Below are positions 29,196 to 32,954 of a DNA stretch of 64,000 bases, in pieces. Each line of letters begins with the position of its first letter. Position 1 is the stretch's first letter. The notes beneath the pieces are model-generated. The model did not search any database. It was given only the letters and a program-made list of their open reading frames with translations, and had not been told where the DNA came from. Source of the stretch: Actinomycetes bacterium (GTDB lineage: Bacteria > Actinomycetota > Acidimicrobiia > Acidimicrobiales > Aldehydirespiratoraceae); assembly GCA_024276495.1 (NCBI GenBank), contig JAJRXC010000110.1, positions 1 through 64,000 on the forward strand, in the 5' to 3' direction. The position numbers and the translations under genes were made by a program.

Positions 29196-30530
29196 GTGCG
29201 CCCACACCGCAACCGACCGAGCATTCGACCACGACGGCCGTTCGTCCACGCGACGATTCTCGGATTGCTGGTGTCTCTGGCCGCGTCCGTCGTCGCGACG
29301 AGGGACCGGTCCGGCGACATCGCCGCGGCGAGCAGCGACGACTCGATCGCGTCGGTGGCGATTCTCGTTCCCGACGATCAGCTGGACCCGCGAATCGTCG
29401 CGCTCGAGCTCCGAGGGACCCGCTGGACCCGGGCCGTGGAACGGCTCGACAAGGCGCTGTTCGCGGTCGCGGACAACGAGCGGCAGCTGACCGGGTCGCG
29501 CGACCGGCTCGGCGAGCTTCGCGCCGCGTTCGCCGAAGTCGGACGCGACTACGCGGCGGTCGTCGCCGAGGTCGACGAGCTGCGCGACAACATCGAGAAG
29601 GTCGAGGCGATCCTGCGGGCCCGCGCCCTCGACCGGTACGTGCACTTCGGCGACGACCCGTTGGCGGGCCTCGACGACCCGAGAAGGGCGACCGACGCCG
29701 GACGTTCCGTCGAGCTCGGACGGCGCGTCGACGAGGTCCAGTTCTCGGCCCGCGACGCCCTCTTGGCGCGACGAGAGCAGACGGACATCGAAGAGTTGAC
29801 CCTCGCGTCCCGGGCGGTCGAGCTGGCCGCCGAGATCGCGTCGACCGAGTCGGTGATCGCCGAGCGGGCCGCGCTCGTCGAGACGCTCGAGGCGGAAGTC
29901 GACGGGGCCACCGCGGCGGTACGGGCCGCCCGGTTCACCGCCGGCATCCCGGGCACCGATCTCTCCGTGGTCGCCCTCGACGCCTACCTCAACGCCGAGG
30001 AGCTCCTGGCGGAGGTCTGGCCGTCGTGTGGTCTTCGCTGGTGGATGATCGCCGGCGTGGCCCGTGTCGAGAGCCGCCACGGCCGTTTCGGGGGGCGTTC
30101 GCTGCGAGCCGACGGCCGAGTCGATCGGCCGATCATCGGGATCGCTCTCGACGGAGGTCCCGGGGTTCGCGCCATGACCGACACCGACGACGGCCGCTTC
30201 GACGGCGACGACGTCTGGGATCGCGCCGTCGGACCGCTCCAGTTCATCCCCGAGACCTGGCTGCGCCGGGGTCGCGACGGGTCCGGCGACGGCCGCGCCG
30301 ATCCGCAGAACATGTACGACGCGGCCTACAGCGCCGGCCGCTACCTCTGCGCGCTCGGTGGCAACCTCGGGTCACGGGCCGGTCTGCGCGGCGCCTACTT
30401 CGGCTACAACAACTCGTCGGTCTATGTCGCCGACGTGATCGGCTTCGCGGATCGCTACGCCGCCTTCGAGCTCCCCGACCCGGCCGAATCCTCCGTTCCT
30501 GTGGTCGAAGCTGTGGAGAACCCGGACTGA
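29196..30530 (+). CDS. Exported lytic transglycosylase-like protein with coiled coil
   Basis: A 444-residue cell-wall protein. It has an N-terminal signal/anchor (about residues 13-35), a long coiled-coil region (about 75-255) rich in Glu, Arg and Ala, then a lytic-transglycosylase domain with WWMIAGVARVESRHGRFGG (catalytic Glu in ESRHG), AVGPLQFIPETW and YDAAYSAGRYLC. These enzymes cleave peptidoglycan glycan strands. The GTG at 29196 follows AGGTGA at good spacing. The frame is open back to 29136, but without a ribosome site. The coiled coil resembles that of peptidoglycan hydrolases controlled by division proteins. Confidence 0.85.
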   Translation: MRPHRNRPSIRPRRPFVHATILGLLVSLAASVVATRDRSGDIAAASSDDSIASVAILVPDDQLDPRIVALELRGTRWTRAVERLDKALFAVADNERQLTGSRDRLGELRAAFAEVGRDYAAVVAEVDELRDNIEKVEAILRARALDRYVHFGDDPLAGLDDPRRATDAGRSVELGRRVDEVQFSARDALLARREQTDIEELTLASRAVELAAEIASTESVIAERAALVETLEAEVDGATAAVRAARFTAGIPGTDLSVVALDAYLNAEELLAEVWPSCGLRWWMIAGVARVESRHGRFGGRSLRADGRVDRPIIGIALDGGPGVRAMTDTDDGRFDGDDVWDRAVGPLQFIPETWLRRGRDGSGDGRADPQNMYDAAYSAGRYLCALGGNLGSRAGLRGAYFGYNNSSVYVADVIGFADRYAAFELPDPAESSVPVVEAVENPD

Positions 30531-30541
30531 GCTGGGGATTG

Positions 30542-30560
30542 CCGGTGGGTTTCTCACCGG
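30542..30560 (+). terminator. Hairpin after the transglycosylase gene
   Basis: CCGGTG and CACCGG form a 6-bp stem with a 7-nt loop, 11 nt after the stop. No T run follows, as is common in high-GC actinobacteria. Confidence 0.45.
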
Positions 30561-30585
30561 AGCCTGGGGAAATCGTCTCGACCCC

Positions 30586-30613
30586 TTGACCTCGGGTCGG
30601 GAGATGGCAGGAT
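30586..30613 (+). promoter_or_regulatory. Sigma-A-like promoter of the structured RNA
   Basis: TTGACC (30586-30591) and CAGGAT (30608-30613), spacing 16 nt. This is the best -35/-10 pair in the window, and no plausible gene starts behind it, which points to an RNA gene. Confidence 0.6.
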
Positions 30614-30618
30614 GCCCC

Positions 30619-31190
30619 TTGTCGAAGCAGGAGCACCCGCTCCGGGATGCCGACACGGACGGATTGGGCGCAAGCCCAAAAGACCGGGTCGGGTTCCTCG
30701 GAACAGGAGCGATCGCTTCGGTACGGCAAGATCAGGCCGGTCCCCTCACGGGGGTCGGCGGGTCGACCGGAGGCACGGAGGTGCGAAACCGGAACGACCG
30801 GAACGGTTCCCGACGGGGACCACCCGGGAGTGAAGGTGACAATCCGCCGGCCGGAGGGTCCGCCACCGTCAGGCGCACACCGCGGGGTGTGAGGCCGGGA
30901 GGGGGAACACACCCACCGGTGGGTACGTGTCAGGGTCGCATCGAGACGGATTCACACTGACGGGTGTGGGAACGCATCTAGGCGAACCGGGTGCCGCCGG
31001 GTACCGACGGTTGATTCAGGCAAGCGGAACCGAAACGTACGGGTCCGTGAGTCAGAGCCACGCTCCGCAAGAGCCGGCTCCATAGGCAGGACGTTCCGAC
31101 GGGGCGGCCACGCCAGGTGATCGGGTCGATTCGAGGCCCCGAGGAGTTGACCGGTGCGAGCCGGGAGGCTACTCGGGGCCTTGTTCTGTC
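30619..31190 (+). ncRNA. Candidate large structured non-coding RNA, class unknown
   Basis: About 570 nt without a credible protein gene on either strand but full of compensable hairpins on the plus strand. Examples are GGAGC-ACCC-GCTCC (about 30630), TTGGGC-GCAA-GCCCAA (30664-30679, GNRA loop), GCAC-GGAG-GTGC (30773-30784), CACACC-GCG-GGTGTG (30876-30890), ACCCAC-CG-GTGGGT (30911-30924), CACAC-TGACG-GTGTG near 30955, and a nested GAGCC/GGCTC plus GCTC-CGCAA-GAGC (31055-31080). Loops and junctions are purine-rich (GAAAC, GGAAC, GGGAAC), as in real RNAs, and the GNRA loops appear only on the plus strand. A promoter precedes it and a terminator-like stem ends it. I found no RNase P, tmRNA, 6S, SRP or rRNA core. 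Confidence 0.6.
31135..31190 (+). terminator. Terminator-like stem at the end of the structured RNA
   Basis: GGCCCCGAG (31135-31143) pairs perfectly with CTCGGGGCC (31172-31180), followed by TTGTTCTGTC. The loop holds a small CCGG/CCGG hairpin. The loop is long for a classic terminator, so this could instead be the closing helix of the RNA. Confidence 0.45.
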
Positions 31191-31230
31191 CGGGACCGGG
31201 GCGGCGGCCGCACCGGTCGCGAGAACGCGC

Positions 31231-31413
31231 TCAGTCGTCCTTGAGCGCCACGGCGTTGGGCGTCACATTCATCTTCGGCTCGTACTCCACCGCGTCGCCC
31301 GCGTCTCCCGACACGCCGGCCATCGTCGCCCGCAGCCCGCGCCGACACTCGTCGCAGGGCCCGTAGAACTCGACGTCGACCGAGGCGTGACAGCGGGGGC
31401 AGGTGATCTCCAT
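31231..31413 (-). CDS. Small zinc-ribbon protein
   Basis: A 60-residue protein opening MEITCPRCHASVDVEFYGPCDECRRG: a CxxC...CxxC zinc ribbon, followed by a tail DAVEYEPKMNVTPNAVALKDD. Its function is unknown; such proteins are often small nucleic-acid or protein adaptors. The ATG at 31413 is the only sensible start and lies inside a perfect 11-bp inverted repeat (31408-31433). It points towards the structured RNA's 3' end, converging with it. Confidence 0.75.
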   Translation of the reverse strand: MEITCPRCHASVDVEFYGPCDECRRGLRATMAGVSGDAGDAVEYEPKMNVTPNAVALKDD

Positions 31414-31499: not shown

Positions 31500-32954
31500 A
31501 TGGGCGAGGATCACCCGAACGACACGGCGGCACGGACCGTCGTCATCGGCGCGGGCCCGGCCGGGCTCACCGCGGCCTACCAGCTGGGCAAGGCCGGGCG
31601 TACGGCCACCGTGCTCGAGGCCACCGATGTGGTCGGCGGCATCTCTCAGACCGCGGAGCGTGACGGCTGGCGATTCGACATCGGAGGACACCGGTTCTTC
31701 ACGAAGGTCACCCCGGTCCAGGAGCTGTGGCACGAGATCCTGCCCGACGAGGATTTCCTGCTGCGTCCGCGGATGAGCCGGATCTACTACAAGGGGAAGT
31801 TCTACGACTACCCGCTGAAGGCCTTCAACGCGCTGCGGAACCTCGGCATCGTCGAAGCGGTCCGCTGTGTGCTCTCCTACGCGTGGGTCCGCCTCAACCC
31901 GCCCGAGGACCTCAGCACCTTCGAAGGGTTCGTTGCCTCCCGGTTCGGCTGGCGGCTCTACCGGATCTTCTTCAAGACCTACACCGAGAAGGTCTGGGGT
32001 GTGCCGGCCGACGAGCTCCAGGCCGACTTCGCCGCCCAACGAATCAAGGATCTCAGCCTGTTCAAGGCGATCTGGAACGCCGTCACCCCCAGCCGGAACC
32101 AAAAGGACATCACCAGCCTGATCGAAGAGTTCGAGTACCCCCGTCACGGTCCCGGGATGATGTGGGAGCGGTGTCACGGTCTCGTGGTCGACCAGGGCAG
32201 TTCGGTGCTGTTCGGGCGAATGGTCGACAAGATCCGGCATCGCGACGGGGTCGCCTACGAGGTCGTGGCGTCGACCACCGACGGGGAGACCAGCGCGCAC
32301 CCCTGCACCGAGGTCATCTCCTCGATGCCGATTCCCCTGCTCGTGCAGGCGATGGATCCACCGGCCCCCGAGGACGTGCAGCTCGCCGCGAAGCGGCTGG
32401 AGTTCCGTGATTTCCTGACCGTCGCGCTGGTGGTGCCCGAAGAAGACGGCTTTCCCGACAACTGGATCTACATCCATGCACCGGAGGTGCAGGTCGGACG
32501 GGTGCAGAACTTCGGCTCGTGGTCGCCCGAGATGATCCCCGAACCGGGCAAGACCTGTCTCGGGCTCGAGTTCTTCGTCAACGAAGGCGACGACCTGTGG
32601 ATCGCCGACGACGACGATCTGATCGCCCAGGCGACGGCGGAGATGCAGCTGCTCGGCCTTCTCGACGCGGACCGGGTCGAGAAGGGCTATGTGGTGCGGA
32701 TGCCGAAGGCGTACCCGATGTACGACGCGACCTACAAGGACAACGTCGAGACCCTGCGGACCTGGCTGCGCGAGGTGGCCGCCAACGTCTTTCCCGTCGG
32801 GCGCAACGGCATGCACCGCTACAACAACCAGGACCACTCGATGTACACCGCGATGTTGACGGTCGAGAACATCGTCAACGGGACCGATCACGACGTGTGG
32901 GAGGTCAACGTGGAGGCCGAGTACCACGAGGAGATCGACGAGCCGGCGCGATGA
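31500..32954 (+). CDS. FAD-dependent oxidoreductase (UDP-galactopyranose mutase-like fold)
   Basis: A 484-residue flavoprotein. The N-terminal dinucleotide motif VIGAGPAGLTAAYQLGKAG is at residues 15-33, followed by GGISQTAERDGWRFDIGGHRFFTK, typical of the amine-oxidase/UDP-galactopyranose-mutase-like enzymes found in polysaccharide loci. The C-terminus RYNNQDHSMYTAMLTVENI closes the FAD site. The substrate is unknown; a nucleotide sugar or lipid-linked sugar is likely from the neighbours. A GGGGAGGGAG ribosome site precedes the ATG. Its stop overlaps the next gene's ATG (ATGA), a glycosyltransferase. Confidence 0.88.
   Translation: MGEDHPNDTAARTVVIGAGPAGLTAAYQLGKAGRTATVLEATDVVGGISQTAERDGWRFDIGGHRFFTKVTPVQELWHEILPDEDFLLRPRMSRIYYKGKFYDYPLKAFNALRNLGIVEAVRCVLSYAWVRLNPPEDLSTFEGFVASRFGWRLYRIFFKTYTEKVWGVPADELQADFAAQRIKDLSLFKAIWNAVTPSRNQKDITSLIEEFEYPRHGPGMMWERCHGLVVDQGSSVLFGRMVDKIRHRDGVAYEVVASTTDGETSAHPCTEVISSMPIPLLVQAMDPPAPEDVQLAAKRLEFRDFLTVALVVPEEDGFPDNWIYIHAPEVQVGRVQNFGSWSPEMIPEPGKTCLGLEFFVNEGDDLWIADDDDLIAQATAEMQLLGLLDADRVEKGYVVRMPKAYPMYDATYKDNVETLRTWLREVAANVFPVGRNGMHRYNNQDHSMYTAMLTVENIVNGTDHDVWEVNVEAEYHEEIDEPAR

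Follow-up and report, generated by a model that had tools for sequence, protein, structure and literature searches.

This locus raises the question of what occupies the gap of 700 nt that separates a transglycosylase-like gene (plus strand, ending at position 30530) from a gene encoding a small zinc-ribbon-like protein (minus strand, ca. 31231-31413) in the window, that is, the whole stretch of 64,000 nt that was analysed. The first-pass annotation had proposed a gene for a large structured RNA that had not been described before, equipped with a promoter and a terminator of its own. Comparative data support this reading, on the grounds of synteny, covariation, a conserved promoter, a conserved terminal hairpin and the lack of any match in Rfam. 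The gap thus very likely carries a stand-alone structured noncoding RNA gene on the plus strand (30620-31190), a conclusion that rests on comparison and not on transcript data. The mature RNA is likely to be ca. 565 nt in length, with ends that were inferred from the promoter and the terminal hairpin (Table 1). The start initially proposed, 30586, corresponds to the -35 box and lies upstream of the probable RNA start at ca. 30620.

Several other statements of the first-pass annotation concerned the immediate surroundings of the RNA and were confirmed. Both hexamers of the proposed TTGACC-N16-CAGGAT promoter and its 16-bp spacer were recovered, and almost all close homologues have a -35/-10 pair of the same kind in the corresponding position, most often separated by 17 bp; comparison shows this to be a conserved sigma-A-type promoter, in the absence of transcript data. 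The claim that no plausible protein frame exists also held, with no frame being conserved among six congeners. In these congeners, 44 of the 45 internal indels are not a multiple of three, indicating that the RNA is non-coding, and substitutions are spread evenly across codon positions. A protein gene was ruled out by these two observations together with a Pfam search that gave no match for the 124-aa ORF present in the region. Finally, the RNA had been said not to lie upstream of a same-strand gene at a distance expected for a riboswitch. Indeed, the next same-strand gene starts only at 31500, beyond the small protein gene encoded on the opposite strand, which makes a riboswitch position unlikely.

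Table 1. Positions in the window of the RNA gene, its domains and its upstream elements
Feature	Position	Strand	Remarks
Box 1, TGTGGT	30500..30505	+	Weakest upstream box; contained, in this genus, within the 3' end of the transglycosylase-like CDS; relatives have a box at -86/-85 relative to the -35
Box 2, TGTGGAGAA	30512..30520	+	DnaA-box-like (reverse TTCTCCACA); start at -74
Box 3, TGGGGATTG	30533..30541	+	Start at -53
Box 4, TGGGGAAAT	30565..30573	+	Start at -21
-35 hexamer, TTGACC	30586..30591	+	
-10 hexamer, CAGGAT	30608..30613	+	
Structured noncoding RNA	30620..31190	+	Ends inferred from promoter and terminal hairpin
5' domain	30620..30723	+	Closed by helix 1 (30620-30623 with 30720-30723); columns 7-113 of alignment A2 mapped to the window
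Main multibranched domain	30724..31128	+	Closed by the long-range helix 5/6; repeated C(GNCG)G-capped hairpins
Terminal hairpin	31126..31183	+	Conserved class-wide (models R1/R2); inner stem, GA/GA internal loop, intrinsic-terminator-like end

Folding of the single sequence gave a z score of -4.2 relative to dinucleotide shuffles for the plus strand and the same value for the minus strand relative to its own shuffles, and therefore does not give the strand. In an alignment of 28 homologues having a mean identity of 59%, the consensus fold energy was -292.6 kcal/mol versus -119 +/- 7 kcal/mol in tree-based null alignments, with z scores of -23.8 for the plus strand and of -10.5 for the minus strand, a difference that indicates the plus strand. 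Since the tree-based null ignores rate variation between columns, the value of -23.8 is generous. Cross-clade tests of pairing and covariation are independent of this null: when the fold derived from one clade was laid on other clades, 61-79% of the cells were paired versus 36-40% for rotated copies, and the transferred pairs covary in sequences that had no part in deriving the fold (AUC 0.65-0.69, p 1e-9 to 1e-13, these p values assuming an independence of column pairs that is not quite met). Three independently derived folds have 60 pairs at identical columns, 34 of which display compensatory double changes. The A2 structure, built on ten sequences, shows 95.5% of cells paired versus 34-48% in slid versions, double changes in 50 of its 147 pairs and a covariation of 0.338 versus 0.202 +/- 0.007 after shuffling. 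A de novo search of all pairs in the 28-row alignment, with a tree-resampled null, found no pair covarying at E < 0.05; individual pairs thus remain unproven and the support is collective, bearing on the structure as a whole.

The RNAalifold consensus comprises 147 pairs in 24 helices, more than the "at least seven local hairpins" originally recognized, and its domains are listed in Table 1 (the conversion of A2 columns into window coordinates was done by hand). In the A2 structure the terminal hairpin extends from 31133 to 31182 and includes the inner stem and the GA/GA internal loop; the 9-bp terminal stem initially described is present, with 9 pairs that can be extended to 12, in addition to the conserved inner stem. 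Across relatives, this hairpin is 96.6% paired, double changes occur in 12 of 20 pairs, and in many cases a T-rich stretch follows on its 3' side as in an intrinsic terminator. Another recurrent feature is the loop motif CCGNCGGG, which occurs two to seven times per RNA in most long forms (ca. 4 copies per long RNA when ca. 0.3 are expected), several copies being located in predicted hairpin loops. Almost none of the short forms (150-270 nt) contain the motif, a few long ones (e.g. L104) also lack it, and CUUCGG is likewise enriched.

Homologues were sought in related genomes, another check that had been proposed, and were found mostly at the same syntenic place where the flanks are kept. BLAST detected full-length homologues in five congeners at 78-80% identity and diverged ones across the family, and the stretch running from the -10 box through to the terminal hairpin is 566-575 nt long in all of the 28 closest full-length homologues. 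The usual gene order is pyruvate kinase (minus), transglutaminase-like (SirB1; minus), GDPD (plus), often transglycosylase (SLT; plus), the RNA (plus), zinc-ribbon-like (minus) and FAD oxidoreductase (plus), and is entire or partial in most matches; GT2 and GGDEF-EAL genes also occur among the flanking genes. The zinc-ribbon-like gene, which adjoins the RNA in many relatives, encodes a protein of 60 aa with CxxC pairs for which Pfam gave only a sub-threshold match (DUF7575). A scan of the genomes of 84,980 species with a pattern of the terminal hairpin returned 40 stretches, nearly all of which keep some of the neighbours flanking the RNA; most are labelled as Acidimicrobiia, Acidimicrobiales or Acidimicrobiaceae MAGs and the others bear broader or odd labels (Actinomycetota, Actinomycetes, Actinomyces sp., Candidatus Aldehydirespirator, "bacterium").

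Within the class, a 58-nt model of the terminal hairpin matched 80 of 395 genomes, and a refined model matched 91 of 389 good genomes, or about a quarter of those sampled, belonging to 53 of 198 genera. A single match per genome was obtained with one listed exception, a genome whose two matches overlap each other on opposite strands. All of these are minimum values, as shown by one genome (G009) that has the box cluster, the promoter and the hairpin and yet was missed by BLAST. In a phylum-wide sample of 396, five matches fell outside the class, all of them weak. Two of these (L115 in G444 and L120 in G458) combine the weak hairpin match with a TTGACC-N17-CAGAGT promoter, an adjoining TGGGGA word and an RNA of ca. 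207 nt, and may possibly be true relatives in another class of the phylum. The length of the RNA varies with the family, from ca. 150 nt (L041) through 210-280 nt (e.g. f31 and f52) and 370 nt up to ca. 725 nt (L042, L049, L058 and L062); across these variants the TTGAC promoter and the terminal hairpin remain, and the upstream boxes described below are kept in most families. This large variation in length, the class-wide spread and the phased boxes had all escaped the first-pass annotation. In one genome (G007; L151), the FAD oxidoreductase gene lies within ca. 100 nt after the GDPD gene, and the RNA, transglycosylase and zinc-ribbon genes are missing from this place. The hairpin models matched nothing in that genome, a relocation of the RNA elsewhere not being excluded, and the locus is possibly a natural deletion background. 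A mobile element was also considered and was ruled out, since no copy of the RNA was found in collections of viral contigs, phages and plasmids.

Comparison with known RNAs was carried out against Rfam 15. At gathering scores the window gave no match, and a cmscan of 30500-31260 with all 4227 families, the verification initially recommended, gave only four unrelated matches at chance level (E 2-10). The GOLLD, ROOL, OLE and raiA RNAs are among these 4227 models. A search of 15 diverged relatives gave no match up to E 1. The RNase P RNA (RF00010) and tmRNA (RF00023) models had no match in the window, and these two RNAs are located at C98 and C10 of the same genome, respectively; the 6S RNA model (RF00013) matched neither in the window nor anywhere in the genome. 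The earlier statement that the cores of RNase P RNA, tmRNA and 6S RNA are absent thus held, and the resemblance it had drawn to GOLLD, ROOL, OLE and raiA holds for size and ornateness only. The RNA is not detectably an RNase P, tmRNA, 6S, Ms1, GOLLD, ROOL, OLE or raiA RNA, and a functional counterpart that has drifted is not excluded.

The sequence upstream of the -35 hexamer contains plus-strand words of the type TGTGGA, TGGGGA or TGTGCA (Table 1). In 50 loci, the plus-strand density of TGKGGA words is 2.26 per 115 bp versus 0.02 for the minus strand and 0.02 in controls, and two or more are found in 88% of the loci versus 0.1% of controls, counts that are slightly favoured by a small bonus given to boxes when promoters were picked. 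Their starts cluster at -21, -42 or -53, -64, -74 and -85 from the -35, in steps of ca. 10.5 bp, so that the boxes would be expected to share one face of the DNA. The distance from Box 4 to the -35 is 20-21 bp in many families, and the position of Box 2 is occupied in relatives by TGTGGACAA, TGTGGAAAA or TGTGCATAA. In this genus two of the boxes (30500-30520) fall on the final codons of the transglycosylase-like gene, and in genera that lack that gene at this place they are intergenic. The same words are found near dnaA, where TGGGGA reaches 1.9 versus 0.14 per 260 bp in the region 3' of this gene (19 genomes; 18 of 19), and a DnaA-type box, TTNTNCACA, occurs upstream of the RNA in 20 of the 50 loci versus 0.2% of controls.

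On the basis of the phased TGKGGA words, of their clustering beside dnaA and of the enrichment in TTNTNCACA, we lean towards the view that the upstream boxes are DnaA boxes that control the RNA, an inference made without binding data and held by a modest margin only. The region 3' of dnaA in Acidimicrobiia (L080-L084 and L137-L150) displays clusters of TGGGGA and TGTGGA, with a TCCACAATCCACA-like word in several genomes; these elements suggest that a variant of the DnaA box possibly exists in the class. In the deep families f52, f53 and f68, the RNA is present without boxes, and control by the boxes is thus either derived or was lost there. The mraZ upstream regions of the same genomes share the core TGKGGA. 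The possibility that this is a replication-origin locus was rejected: dnaA lies 2.04 Mb away in a genome of 4.48 Mb (G005), 1.44 Mb away in 3.6 Mb (G365) and 1.05 Mb away in 3.8 Mb (G830), so that the RNA locus does not adjoin dnaA and lies at varying distances from it.

Comparison establishes the gene, its strand, fold, promoter and end, its near-universal occurrence as a single copy and its location at one locus in most carriers. The mode of action is a matter of inference. In the mechanism that we propose, DnaA bound to an array of boxes on one face of the DNA, upstream of the -35, would set the transcription of the RNA, whose output would follow the activity of DnaA and, through it, the replication cycle or the growth rate. 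The RNA would then act in trans through protein binding and not through base pairing, serving as a scaffold or a sponge, and its 3' hairpin may double as terminator and constant protein-binding site. A trans-acting, protein-binding RNA with transcription tied to DnaA is, as a whole, a proposal that could equally well prove right or wrong: neither transcript nor binding data are available, and there is no proof of partner or function. That the RNA works by binding protein, also inferred without binding data, is for us an evenly balanced matter. Protein binding is preferred to pairing because the shape and the end-hairpin are maintained despite drift in sequence and length, because the same capped hairpin recurs within most long forms and because no single-stranded stretch common to all families was noticed, target pairing itself not having been tested.

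Other explanations differ in how far they can account for these data. That the region is an untranslated leader, a riboswitch or a degenerate protein gene is suggested by its location between genes and by the chance open frames that occur at ca. 70% G+C, but is all but excluded by the opposite orientation of the adjacent downstream gene, by the terminal hairpin with a T-rich tail seen in many relatives, by the out-of-frame indels and by the silence of Pfam. The locus might instead be a DNA element, namely a datA-like site titrating DnaA with incidental transcription, as dense phased DnaA-like boxes far from dnaA could indicate; this is very unlikely given that the downstream RNA has compensatory changes and a fold conserved well beyond the boxes, and that some families have the RNA without boxes. 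The boxes could also bind another regulator such as MraZ, in which case the RNA would follow cell-wall or division control and not replication. The GTGG/TGGGG words common to mraZ upstream regions speak in favour of this reading, which we nonetheless regard as unlikely: mraZ sites look like GTGG words ca. 10 bp apart, whereas the boxes of the RNA resemble those between dnaA and dnaN and are extended by AT-rich sequence, as in TGTGGATAAC or TGTGCATAAC, in agreement with the DnaA consensus and with the enrichment given above.

Two further alternatives bear on the function of the RNA. It could be the acidimicrobial counterpart of 6S or Ms1 RNA, binding RNA polymerase and drifted beyond recognition. 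A search based on synteny has been reported to locate Ms1 in many Actinobacteria, with a HAD-IB hydrolase gene as neighbour (PMC9130861). This alternative finds support in the fact that 6S RNA was not found in the genome, in the single-copy, stand-alone and weakly conserved nature of the RNA, as reported for Ms1 (PMC9130861), and in the flavin oxidoreductase gene downstream, "oxidoreductase" being among the words of Ms1 synteny (PMC9130861). It is nevertheless unlikely, because the consensus fold is multibranched and lacks the rod shape and central bubble of 6S RNA, no HAD-IB hydrolase occurs among the flanking genes and Rfam remains silent even at permissive thresholds, although the silence of the 6S model, which extends to most control genomes, says little. 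A sponge of the CsrB/RsmZ type, in which the repeated C(GNCG)G loops would titrate one RNA-binding protein, is suggested by the abundance of CCGNCGGG in most long forms and by its location in predicted loops. It is equally regarded as unlikely: the capped hairpin is missing from nearly all short forms and some long ones, so that such a sponge cannot be the general function, and the joint enrichment of CUUCGG means that the motif may serve merely as a stable cap.

Overall, these data define a new RNA class of Acidimicrobiia that has no detectable relative in Rfam and that occupies one locus across many families. No description of it was found in the literature searched, most subscription journals being outside its scope, and the searches found no structured RNAs of this kind described for Acidimicrobiia. 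A bolder reading, in which the synthesis of a large class-wide RNA is governed directly by a phased array of DnaA, falls slightly short of what we would endorse; if true, it would provide an RNA regulator or scaffold coupled to replication or to the cell cycle and having no known counterpart in other bacteria. Were the DnaA reading correct, control of replication initiation would be linked to a noncoding RNA in Actinomycetota. The variation in length around a fixed promoter and end-hairpin, and the fact that at least one genome lacks the RNA at this locus, offer direct routes to the functional core.

When compared to known systems, the RNA shares with Ms1 and 6S RNA (PMC9130861) a single-copy, stand-alone gene at a fixed locus in Actinobacteria and weak sequence conservation, but differs in being multibranched and not rod-like, in its neighbours, in its conserved terminal hairpin and in its DnaA-like promoter boxes. 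The CsrB/RsmZ RNAs are known for repeated identical hairpin loops, conserved upstream activation sites and variable length, all of which are found here (the loops in long forms); the loop motif is however GNCG and not GGA, and nearly all short forms lack it. The Caulobacter RNA CcnA, reported to modulate CtrA and GcrA (PMC8959179), is likewise a noncoding RNA tied to cell-cycle control, a tie that is only inferred for the RNA described here, and it belongs to an unrelated lineage with a different reported role. The raiA motif RNA is, like this RNA, a conserved and rather large structured RNA of Gram-positive bacteria; here, no Rfam match was obtained and no raiA gene occurs among the flanking genes examined. 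Finally, GOLLD, ROOL and OLE (PMC12286853) are similarly large, ornate and stand-alone RNAs with many helices and an unsettled function. In contrast to these, the present RNA has no match in Rfam, and searches of phage, plasmid and viral collections gave no copy; it is chromosomal, resides at one locus in most carriers and exists as short forms in other families.
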